Shown: in pieces, positions 2,908 to 38,221 of the stretch
Layout of the letters: every line of letters starts with the position of its first letter
Numbering within the stretch: the stretch's first letter is position 1
From: Paucisalibacillus globulus
Lineage (GTDB): Bacteria; Bacillota; Bacilli; Bacillales; Amphibacillaceae
Assembly: GCF_900184735.1 (NCBI RefSeq)
Contig: NZ_LT855387.1
Span: forward strand, 181,099-245,098
Direction: 5' to 3'
Length of the DNA stretch: 64,000 bases
Program-made: the position numbers and the translations under genes
The notes under the pieces: model-generated
The model's database searches: none
What the model saw: the letters and a program-made list of their open reading frames with translations, nothing else
What the model was told of the DNA's origin: nothing

Positions 2908-3196
2908 AGAAACTGTGCGGTAACCACTGTTAATTTCCTAAAAATAAATGGGATAGTGGTATGATTCCGCTCCGGCAGAATACTCCGCTTTCCACGGGCA
3001 CGGCCTCAGCCTCCTCGCGGATAGTTCACCGCTGCGGGGTCTTCGGACACGTGCTATTCCCGTAGGAGTCTACGTATTCTGCCTGCGCTGGTTTAATTTT
3101 CCAATTATTGTTAGTTGTTGAATCATGTTTCGGATTTATGTGGTTCAATTACTCTTTTACACTCATTACTAGCGAAGGAAATACACGGAGACTCCT
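2908..3196 (+). repeat. Dispersed GC-rich element E1, left part
   Basis: Left part of a GC-rich repeat in AT-rich DNA. It begins with AGAAACTGTGCGGTAAC, which is inverted with one mismatch at 4919-4935. Inside is a block (about 2966-3053) nearly identical to the reverse complement of 63008-63109 in E3, and a second block (3170-3196) matching the reverse complement of about 62888-62920. It has no coding frame of its own. The element is cut at 3196 by the IS110-family insertion; the rest is at 4797-4935. Confidence 0.85.
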
Positions 3197-3315
3197 ACCA
3201 TGAAAATAAAGTTCTAAAATATGGAAAAACGGCAATACTTAAATAGACGCAGCTCATTCTTTCTTTTTTTTTAAAAGCGAGAGCGCCAAAATCTACTATC
3301 ATATGGCGATGGTAA

Positions 3316-4539
3316 TTATGATGCTTTTGGTTTTTTGATTTCCACAACGTAACCTAGACTCTCTAGGCGGCGACGTGAATGCCTGACAATTGACTCTTGT
3401 CTTTGTTTGTCAAAATAATCTTCTCCTAAATCTATATACATTTCCTTACGTGTTAGTAAATAGTAGGAGATCCGTAAAATCGCATGAGCCACTACAACCG
3501 CTGCTCGCTTTTTACCTTTGCGTGCTGCAGTACGGCGATAAAGTGCTCCGAGATAGTTCTTTGAGCCACGGACTGAATGAGCTGCTTCGATTAAAGCTGA
3601 TTTCAAGTATTTATTTCCGTTTCTTGTTTTAGACGATTTGCGTTTTCCGGCACTTTGGTTATTTCCAGGAACCAGACCTGCCCACGAACACATGTGAGCT
3701 GCGCCAGGATATTGTTTTTTTATATCCCTTCCTAGCTCAGCGAGCATCTGTTCAGCCATTCTTCTGGCGATTCCAGGAATGGAATCCAAGCGATCGATAT
3801 CTTCCTGATAATCTTGCATACGTAAAGCGATTTCTTTATCCAATTTATCAATATTGTCGGCAAGAAAATCAATATGCCCTAGGATGGTCTTTATCATAAA
3901 TCGTTGATGATCTTGTATATACCCCTGAAGGGCTAGTTTGAGTTCTTCCTTTTTTTGTTTCATTTTCCCTCTCGCCATGTTGGCTAACACTTCAAGATCA
4001 TCATTTCCATCAGCGATTGACCGAAGCATTTCAAGCGAAGAAACTCCCGTGATTTCAGAAACAACGGAACCTAGTTTGATATTAGCTCCTTCTAAGACTT
4101 TCTGTATCCGGTTCAATTGTCTTGCGCGTTCTTCGATGATACTTCGACGATAACGAACGAGTTCGCGTAATTCTCGTTGTTCTCGGTCGGGAATATAGCT
4201 GGCTCTGAGTAAACCATGACGAAGTAATTTCGCAATCCATTCAGCATCTTTTACATCTGTTTTTCTTCCCGGAACAGCTTTAATATGTTGCGCATTAACA
4301 ACCAGGAATTCAATATCTTCAGCTTCTAATAAATTAACAATTGGTTTCCAGTAGACACTTGTACTCTCCATCGCCACATGCGAGCATTTGTGATCCTTTA
4401 CCCAATCCACCAACTCAATTAGGTAAACTGTCTTAGTTGAAAATGTTCTAATCTCCTTTCCTTCCGGTGTTATAATACACGCAGTGATACTGTCCTTGTG
4501 GACATCCAAACCACACGCTCTTTCAATGATAATATCCAT
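3316..4539 (-). CDS. IS110-family transposase (DEDD recombinase)
   Basis: Complete recombinase of about 407 residues. The N-terminal RuvC-like DEDD domain shows GLDVHKD (first Asp), AMEST (Glu) and TDVKDA (the paired Asp). The C-terminal Tnp20 domain shows SWAGLVPGNNQSAGK, the region of the catalytic serine. These enzymes recombine a circular element with a target, guided by a bridge RNA made from the element. No frameshift or stop is seen, so it may be active. I prefer ATG 4539 because AAAGGATG lies 6 bases upstream; ATG 4548 overlaps that site. Confidence 0.95.
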   Translation of the reverse strand: MDIIIERACGLDVHKDSITACIITPEGKEIRTFSTKTVYLIELVDWVKDHKCSHVAMESTSVYWKPIVNLLEAEDIEFLVVNAQHIKAVPGRKTDVKDAEWIAKLLRHGLLRASYIPDREQRELRELVRYRRSIIEERARQLNRIQKVLEGANIKLGSVVSEITGVSSLEMLRSIADGNDDLEVLANMARGKMKQKKEELKLALQGYIQDHQRFMIKTILGHIDFLADNIDKLDKEIALRMQDYQEDIDRLDSIPGIARRMAEQMLAELGRDIKKQYPGAAHMCSWAGLVPGNNQSAGKRKSSKTRNGNKYLKSALIEAAHSVRGSKNYLGALYRRTAARKGKKRAAVVVAHAILRISYYLLTRKEMYIDLGEDYFDKQRQESIVRHSRRRLESLGYVVEIKKPKAS

Positions 4540-4551
4540 TGAAAACATCCT

Positions 4552-4722
4552 TTCTACGGCAAATCATAATAGAGGCTGGCGCAACAACCAGAATAGGGTT
4601 AATCTACCATGAGTGCTTCCTATAAAAGGAGCAACAATCAGTGATGCACCGTGGTCGAAGGAGTCAGACTGCGGGTAGGGCTCTCACGCACCAAGGAGTT
4701 CCGACCTTCCACATCCAGCCGT
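4552..4722 (-). ncRNA. Candidate IS110 bridge RNA
   Basis: Noncoding region upstream of the transposase, read on the minus strand. After a TATACT -10-like box (4729-4734), a hairpin-forming stretch carries CCCGCAG (4675-4669) and, 3 bases later, GACTCCT (4665-4659). The first equals the minus-strand sequence on one side of the target and the second is complementary to the minus strand on the other side, as expected for left and right target guides. Further on, TCATGGTAG (4612-4604) equals the last bases of the right end plus core, a candidate donor guide, and GATTAAC after it partly matches the other donor side. The boundaries are approximate. Size and place fit known IS110 bridge RNAs (about 180 nt). 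Confidence 0.65.
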
Positions 4723-4796
4723 AGCAACAGTATAGCCAAATAAAAGTCATTTTCATCCTCTGTGGTGTATAGCTCTTTTTTGATATACATGATTGA

Positions 4797-4935
4797 CTGC
4801 GGGAGGATAGGCATCGGTGAGACCCCGCAAGAGCTTTAGCTCTGAGGAGGCTCACCAGCCGCCCGCGGAAAGCGGAGTGTATTTCCGTAGCGGCTATGAT
4901 GCGCTACCATAATGCTTAGTTACCGCGCAGTTTCT
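4797..4935 (+). repeat. Dispersed GC-rich element E1, right part
   Basis: The right part of E1 resumes with CTGCGGGAGGATAGGC and runs through AAGCGGAGTGTATTTCCGTAGCGG to the terminal inverted repeat GTTACCGCGCAGTTTCT (4919-4935). The stretch 4797-4900 is nearly identical to the reverse complement of 62740-62830 in E3. Without the insertion, E1 would be about 426 bp. Confidence 0.85.
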
Positions 4936-19828: not shown

Positions 19829-19904
<76 letters not shown>

Positions 19905-19970
19905 TTATGTTATAAAGTTAATTTATGAAGCAAAGCTCGTCGCTCTACTGGTTAAAGATGAAATTATGTA

Positions 19971-20063
19971 TGGAGGAGGTAGAGGGATTCGAACCCCCGC
20001 GCGGTTTGACCCGCCTGTCGGTTTTCAAGACCGATCCCTTCAGCCAGACTTGGGTATACCTCC
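19971..20063 (-). tRNA. tRNA-Ser (TGA)
   Basis: Class II tRNA of 93 nt with a long variable arm, acceptor GGAGGTA / TACCTCC, anticodon loop CTTGAAA, encoded CCA. Confidence 0.95.
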
Positions 20064-20074
20064 CGAGTTTTTTA

Positions 20075-20151
20075 TGGTGGACCCTGCAGGACTCGAACCT
20101 GCGACCGATCGGTTATGAGCCGATAGCTCTAACCAACTGAGCTAAGGGTCC
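20075..20151 (-). tRNA. tRNA with CAT anticodon, probably tRNA-Ile2
   Basis: 77 nt with acceptor GGACCCT, anticodon loop CTCATAA and encoded CCA. The anticodon CAT reads Met, or Ile AUA codons after lysidine modification by TilS. The C4-G69 and C5-G68 pairs favoured by TilS are present, and the sequence resembles Bacillus tRNA-Ile(CAU) more than elongator or initiator Met. Confidence 0.8.
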
Positions 20152-20166
20152 TTGTAATAAATAATA

Positions 20167-20243
20167 TGGGGCGATCGATGGGAATCGAACCCACGAATGC
20201 CGGAGCCACAATCCGGTGCGTTAACCCCTTCGCCACGACCGCC
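20167..20243 (-). tRNA. tRNA-His (GTG)
   Basis: Anticodon loop TTGTGGC, with the extra G at position -1 opposite C73 that marks tRNA-His, and encoded CCA. Confidence 0.95.
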
Positions 20244-20267
20244 ATGATGTAAATTAACTTAAGTAAA

Positions 20268-20344
20268 TGGTAGCGGCGGAGGGGATCGAACCCACGACCT
20301 CACGGGTATGAACCGTACGCTCTCGCCAGCTGAGCTACGCCGCC
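20268..20344 (-). tRNA. tRNA-Met (CAT), elongator
   Basis: 77 nt with acceptor GGCGGCG / CGCCGCT, anticodon loop TTCATAC, encoded CCA. It closely resembles Bacillus elongator tRNA-Met. Confidence 0.93.
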
Positions 20345-20352
20345 ATTTAATT

Positions 20353-20427
20353 TGGCTCCACAGGTAGGATTCGAACCTACGACCGATCGGTTAACAGCCG
20401 ATTGCTCTACCACTGAGCTACTGTGGA
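20353..20427 (-). tRNA. tRNA-Asn (GTT)
   Basis: 75 nt with acceptor TCCACAG / CTGTGGA, anticodon loop CTGTTAA, encoded CCA. First tRNA of the cluster, downstream of the promoter at 20481-20509. Confidence 0.95.
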
Positions 20428-37983: not shown

Positions 37984-38221
37984 TAAAAACCCGTCCCTAT
38001 GCCTATAAAAAGATTATAGACATAGGGACGGGTTTTAGTCCGCGGTTCCACCCTATTTGCTTTACCACCCTGTGATAAAGCCACTTTATTAAATATGCTC
38101 CAGAGTGCCATTCCTATCTGGCCATTTGTTCAGCTTTCACTATCCTGAACTCGCTTTTAGAAATGGTTGCAGAAAGTACTCTTCTCTCTCATCACATTAT
38201 CTTTTAAATATGTAATAAATA
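37984..38221 (-). promoter_or_regulatory. Glycine T-box leader with terminator
   Basis: Leader RNA of glyQS. The conserved T-box sequence AGGGTGGAACCGCGG is read on the minus strand at 38054-38040, followed by a strong terminator (AAAACCCGTCCCTATG / CATAGGGACGGGTTTT, 38036-37986). Upstream is stem I with a probable glycine specifier GGC near 38109-38107. Uncharged tRNA-Gly should bind the specifier and the T-box bulge (TGGA), favouring the antiterminator, so that glyQS is made when glycine charging falls. The AGTTCAGGATAGTGAAAGCTGAAC segment is the apical part of stem I. Confidence 0.93.

Follow-up and report, generated by a model that had tools for sequence, protein, structure and literature searches.

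An IS110-family element in Paucisalibacillus globulus and its predicted bridge RNA with target guides in right-then-left order

The element, its ends and the interrupted host repeat

The window, that is, the whole stretch of 64,000 nucleotides of P. globulus DNA that was analysed, contains an IS110-family element on the minus strand, placed within a host repeat with the following features.

3180–3196, left (plus-strand) part of the interrupted host repeat, from the junction compared with intact copies
3195–3196, minus strand, core dinucleotide AG at the right-end junction (CT on the plus strand), from the junctions and the ends of relatives
3197–4798, minus strand, IS110-family element of 1602 bp including one core copy, from the junctions, both ends in relatives and intact host repeats
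3316–4548, minus strand, gene for a 410-aa DEDD transposase/recombinase, open frame
4797–4798, minus strand, core dinucleotide AG at the left end (CT on the plus strand), from the junctions and the ends of relatives
4797–4890, right (plus-strand) part of the interrupted host repeat, from the junction compared with intact copies

When the junctions were read, only CT of the plus strand (AG in gene orientation) was found duplicated at the flanks of the element. The 410-aa transposase contains the DEDD RuvC-like and Transposase_20 domains expected of the IS110 family (PF01548, E 7e-40; PF02371, E 1e-19), matches NF033542 (“IS110 family RNA-guided transposase”), and is similar in sequence to the solved IS621 recombinase (chain 8wt6, E 1.8e-17). 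A first-pass annotation, made from the sequence of this DNA, had described an IS110-family element with CT as the sole duplicated bases, and both the junctions and the protein domains agree with it. The predicted RNA is held in the left, 5′ non-coding end, which measures about 250 bases (4549–4798; 250–253), and the right end is about 120 bases (3197–3315; 119–121). A long RNA-bearing left end with a short right end is the arrangement of the IS110 group, and the RNA lies upstream of the transposase gene and not downstream as in the IS1111 group. Inverted repeats near the ends, as judged by eye, amount to CATG in the window element and up to CCATGAA in some relatives, those typical of the IS1111 group being subterminal and 7–17 bp long.

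The uninterrupted site, GACTCCTGCGGGAGG, is present in the host in 79 exact copies and 23 copies with one mismatch, and the reversed-pattern control gave 0. The repeat is often palindromic with the form GGAAATACACGGAGACTCCTGCGGGAGG ... GTGTATTTCC, as seen by eye in many among 12 of the 30 retrieved copies, and palindromic repeats are described as known targets of IS110-family elements in Durrant 2024 (PMC11208160). The 12-base target CCCGCAGGAGTC also occurs 4 to 122 times per genome in 8 other genomes (control, 0). The earlier proposal that the element is aimed at the dispersed repeats of its own host is therefore well supported by the 79 exact intact sites and by the matching guides presented below. 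In the host, this target is occupied by a single copy of the element. The repeat targeted by the second copy of the same genome (L002), searched in the host as AACTAA-N3..8-CCCGTTAGTT, was not found there. In addition, an inverted-repeat unit GGCAGAATACTCCGC ... GGAGTCTACGTATTCTGCC occupies positions 2970–3095 immediately to the left of the element and probably belongs to the host repeat family as a paired copy.

Target guides in the leaders of related elements

The relatives were taken as the best 80 of 537 loci, mostly from named Bacillaceae and Paenibacillaceae; elements of Citrobacter, Nostoc, and Lactococcus, whose boundaries were not settled, were excluded. The leaders were long enough in 79 of 82 cases (L014, L016, and L039 were dropped), and both ends were located in 73 of these 79, the window and its own-genome copy included (L008, L038, L042, L061, L070, and L078 were dropped). 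Three segments of the leader are discussed here.

4669–4675, minus strand, predicted left target guide CCCGCAG, target loop, 3′ side, from covariation and identity of guide and flank
4694–4699, minus strand, predicted right target guide ACTCCT (pairs with AGGAGT), target loop, 5′ side, from covariation and from L003 and L011
4658–4668, minus strand, conserved non-guide segment TCTGACTCCTT, which includes GACTCCT, from the conservation of TCTGACTCC

Every leader column was compared with every target position in 70 elements (L079, L007, and L010 dropped), giving 10,400 tests in which no guide was assumed. The top four tests paired target positions −5 to −2 with four successive leader columns (70/70, 69/69, 68/69, and 67/69), and these columns are the CCCG of CCCGCAG in the window. 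Target position −1 (69/69) ranked seventh, after two rare-variant artefacts at position −6 (2/70). The set was then enlarged by 18 copies from three further genomes, and 87 of 90 elements were used (L027, L047, and L069 were missed by the pattern). The left guide was identical to the element's own flank over 5 bases in 82 of the 87, and in 35 of 39 when the commonest guide was excluded. It matched 423 of 435 positions against a maximum of 333 in 10,000 permutations, and so the match is not due to chance, as the first-pass annotation had argued for the window when it took CCCGCAG, equal to the left target strand, as a guide. When the three pattern-missed guides were restored by hand and the second unit of a tandem pair was omitted, identity between the left flank and the five guide bases before the core was seen in 84 of the 89 related elements. 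The five mismatched pairs were L022, in which the guide is partly deleted, and L047, L048, L055, and L186 with one base each. L022 has lost four bases of its left guide with the flank still CCGTT and is a probable guide-dead copy.

Because kinship among the sequences inflates the column statistics, the number of guide switches is the safer figure. On the transposase tree, 12 intact left guides account for at least 19 guide switches and 19 target switches, and these numbers were unchanged with weak branches collapsed; L022 was left out of the switch count. The left guides of two copies in one genome (G091; L188 and L189) differ, being CCGTT and CAGTT, and the guide of each agrees with the flank at which that copy sits, which points to retargeting within a single genome. 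Conversely, copies with the same leader at unrelated sites would have spoken against guiding. In Radiobacillus kanasensis (G118), ten copies, comprising eight single ones and one tandem pair and alike in their guides, all have CCCGC-AG-GAGTC as outer flanks while sitting in several versions of related repeats; the surroundings of two of them (L179 and L180) are nearly identical, and these may not be independent insertions. In G056, GAGTC is present at all six copies, together with CCCGC at five and, with a single base different, CCCGG at the sixth. An alternative in which the protein recognises the DNA of the hairpin repeat and the RNA matches are incidental would accord with the known targeting of palindromic repeats by the family (Durrant 2024, PMC11208160), but related transposases are found at different sites, each of which matches the guide of the copy inserted there, and we consider this alternative hardly credible. 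Selection of the target by the RNA remains the preferred reading.

The right guide was placed on evidence that is good, although less firm than that for the left guide. CCCGCAG and GACTCCT do lie 3 bases apart in the leader, as had been reported; the further proposal, that GACTCCT is the right guide and stands beside CCCGCAG in one hairpin closed by TGGTGC/GCATCA, is very unlikely. A 7/7 fit to GACTCCT (4665–4659) is indeed found in 18 elements aimed at GAGTC, namely that of the window and 17 more, but the 61 other carriers of GACTCC reach 4/7 at most; among these 61 is the first unit of the tandem pair, which has the second unit as its right flank. The sequence TCTGACTCC, which contains GACTCCT, was found in 79 of 85 elements regardless of their right targets, with 6 of 85 lacking GACTCC. 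Furthermore, three relatives with the same GACTCCTT (L002, L029, and L048) are inserted at TTTAAG, TTTAAC, and TACAAC, respectively, and the TGGTGC/GCATCA stem shows zero compensatory changes. A segment that fits the window perfectly is thus contradicted by the family, indicating that a single sequence is insufficient for calling guides.

The segment that tracks the right target is on the opposite side of the loop and reads ACTCCT for AGGAGT, AACT for AGTT, AGCT for most AGCT targets, and TTACT for AGTAA. Among 85 elements (L007 and L010, with one flanking base each, were left out), 451 of 510 positions matched against at most 376 in 2,000 permutations, the better of two registers being taken for observed and permuted data alike. 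The values were 442/498 versus 366 without both tandem units and 340/396 versus at most 325 when the GAGTC-targeting elements were also removed, among which ACTCCT and GACTCCT are inseparable by covariation. The right-guide columns came only about tenth in the unbiased scan (z 6.8), amid equally strong meaningless hits, and it is therefore the permutation test that supports the placement of this guide. In L003 and L011, the closest relatives, the segment is AGACTCCT with at least 8 bases matched, and the GAACTCCT of the window matches 6, the right guide differing from theirs just outside the six paired bases. These results together suggest ACTCCT (4699–4694) as the right target guide.

Some flanks showed further regularities. 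The right flanks of L002, L005, L009, L013, L018, L020, L025, L026, and L049 share TTTAAG-N8-TTCACA well past the guide, which might be another dispersed repeat or an end that escaped recognition. The right flanks of L077, L079, and L081 start with TAAG; the left flank of L077 and L081, TTAACGGGCAG, reads like the common target CTGCCCGTTA in reverse complement, which would fit targeting of the opposite strand in a related repeat, and L079 has its left end cut with only the guide CGGAC visible.

The conserved fold and the donor loop

The fold was derived from 67 of 82 leaders after duplicates and incomplete ones had been dropped, and it places the following features on the leader.

4756–4729, minus strand, promoter-like ATGAAA-16-TATACT, a consensus match only
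4574–4735, minus strand, inferred bridge RNA with approximate ends, from conserved structure over 4574–4720 in 67 leaders
4702–4706, minus strand, target-loop closing stem, 5′ strand GGTCG, one compensatory pair
4678–4692, minus strand, target-loop apical hairpin GGTGC/GCCC between both target guides, 2 pairs with compensatory changes
4653–4657, minus strand, target-loop closing stem, 3′ strand CGACC, conserved fold
4645–4650, minus strand, donor-loop closing stem, 5′ strand GGTGCA, paired in 67/67 with one-sided changes only
4615–4632, minus strand, donor-loop apical hairpin, 3 pairs with compensatory changes
4604–4612, minus strand, predicted left donor guide TCATGGTAG, donor loop, 3′ side, covarying with the right end
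4578–4583, minus strand, donor-loop closing stem, 3′ strand TGCGCC, conserved fold

In the structure shared by the 67 leaders, GGTCG/CGACC forms the first closing stem, an apical hairpin is present, and GGTGCA/TGCACC closes the second loop; 99.5% of cells are paired. Compensatory changes were found in 6 pairs and 11 cells, compared with 0.6 and 0.7 in shuffles, and were zero in the outer and the donor closing stems. Both target guides are unpaired in this fold and face each other across one internal loop, an arrangement also described for IS621. They do not fall within conserved paired stems, where their presence would have counted against them. The bridge-type RNA in the leader that the first-pass annotation had suggested was thus retained, and a two-loop fold with compensatory pairs took the place of the hairpin said to hold GACTCCT; the TGGTGC/GCATCA stem of that hairpin is pairable in 99.8% of cells because its bases are conserved. 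A closing stem GGTC/GACT given by RNAalifold was rejected, as it had no compensatory changes and the natural variant L068 replaces GACT. Folded as a single sequence, the RNA of the window alone was no more stable than shuffles (z 0.01).

In the donor loop, the left guide TCATGGTAG covaried with the right end of the element at 72/72, 70/71, and 70/71, which were the three best results among 2,170 tests, and variants such as TCATGGG and TCAGGGT are present among relatives. The same 9 nucleotides had been read earlier as the right end plus core, and the covariation identifies them as the probable left donor guide. For the right donor guide, which would serve the left end, candidate segments on the 5′ side of that loop showed no clear covariation. 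As far as comparison goes, the leader would therefore encode the two-loop RNA complementary to target and donor that is expected of the IS110 family, with three of the four guides placed. A scan of the element at the Rfam gathering thresholds detected no RNA family; elsewhere in the window, the Rfam scan detected a T-box leader (38021–38201) and a cluster of six tRNA genes (19832–20427).

Guide order, proposed mechanism and activity

In gene orientation, the predicted right-target guide of the window and its relatives precedes the left-target guide, the reverse of the IS110-group order. In IS621, the left guide comes first and the right guide second, as published (Durrant 2024; Hiraizumi 2024), and a real IS621 copy (L190) read by eye has the left guide ATCGGGCCT, the right guide CGTAG, and then the left donor guide. 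The window element resembles IS621 in its DEDD recombinase, the bridge RNA at the 5′ end, two loops with target and donor guide pairs, guides that include the core, a dispersed palindromic-repeat target, and a core that is CT in the frame of the RNA. It differs from IS621 in the reversed guide order, the AG core in gene orientation, and a transposase of 410 aa versus 326 that falls in a separate clade. In the seekRNA of ISEc21, according to Siddiquee et al. 2024, the segment matching the bottom strand lies 5′ of the one matching the top strand; the window family shares with it the non-coding region upstream of the transposase and natural redirection through guide changes, but has the opposite guide order.

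For the IS1111 group (ISEc11, ISPa11, and ISKpn4), Siddiquee et al. 2024 describe a top-strand guide before a bottom-strand guide, in an RNA usually downstream of the gene with exceptions such as ISMtsp17. The window family has this top-strand-first order of the IS1111 seekRNAs, but its RNA is upstream and its transposase does not group with those of IS4321 and IS884, which were separated at 100/100 in a tree of 25 proteins whose deep forks were weak (73/61) and which had several long branches. The family thus appears to combine the RNA position of the IS110 type with the guide order of the IS1111 type, which suggests that the order of the guides is not bound to the position of the RNA in the way implied by the published IS110/IS1111 contrast. 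In the literature texts searched, no description of the right-then-left order for an upstream bridge RNA was found; ISAar29, among the six examples of Durrant 2024, might show it.

The same guide order was seen by eye, with some guide/flank mismatches, in three elements of Streptomyces (L192, L205, and L206) and one of Rhodococcus (L199), the amino acid identity to the window protein being 43.8% for L192 and 40.1% for L199. These actinobacterial IS110 elements, with transposases of about 410–420 aa, resemble that of the window in the AG core, the loop layout, and guides that match their own flanks, and differ from it in having other guides and other targets. An empty site among them was found for L192 only, as CCTCTTGGT-AG-CTCGCGG in L203. 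The chances are about even that a long-transposase IS110 clade of Bacilli and actinobacteria has an upstream bridge RNA flipped relative to the core, its Bacillota left guides having been re-aimed at least 19 times, once onto a host repeat of about 100 copies, and that it represents a second natural geometry for programmable recombinases. If this is true, the element would be inserted the opposite way to IS621 in the CT frame of the RNA, and programmable recombinases from this clade would need a reversed guide layout. The 12 intact left guides and at least 19 switches provide a well-sampled natural experiment on bridge-RNA retargeting.

The locus is an insertion sequence of the IS110 family that most likely, with a probability of roughly 90%, inserts by bridge-RNA-guided recombination. 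The scheme proposed here starts from the junctions, the repeat, the fold, and the three guides read in the sequences. The 5′ non-coding end would be transcribed into an RNA with two internal loops, in which the target loop would address the target through ACTCCT on its 5′ side and CCCGCAG on its 3′ side, guides that include the core, and the 3′-side guide TCATGGTAG of the donor loop would pair with the right end of the element itself. Strands would be exchanged by the recombinase at the core, which is AG in gene orientation and CT in the frame of the RNA, and a circular form of the element, with TTTTCATGGT-AG-TCAATCA as its predicted junction, would enter the palindromic repeat present in about a hundred copies in the host. 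Because the core is CT in the frame of the RNA, as in IS621, the simplest reading we infer is that the chemistry is unchanged and the element lies the other way round with respect to its RNA.

Present-day activity of the window copy is a separate matter. This copy may be inactive since its right guide differs from that of close relatives and it is the single copy at its target. That it is a dead relic, although a real member of the guided family, is possible if somewhat doubtful: the lone copy and a right guide unlike that of close relatives outside the paired six bases are in its favour, but the 410-aa frame is open, the ends are intact, and the six- and seven-base guides both match the present flanks. 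Elsewhere in the family, the tandem pair of R. kanasensis (L174; G118:C1:1606200-1610200) is arranged head to tail with one shared core, forming a chromosomal right-end-AG-left-end junction. In another relative, L025, the right end carries a tandem duplication of its final 25 bases at the junction.
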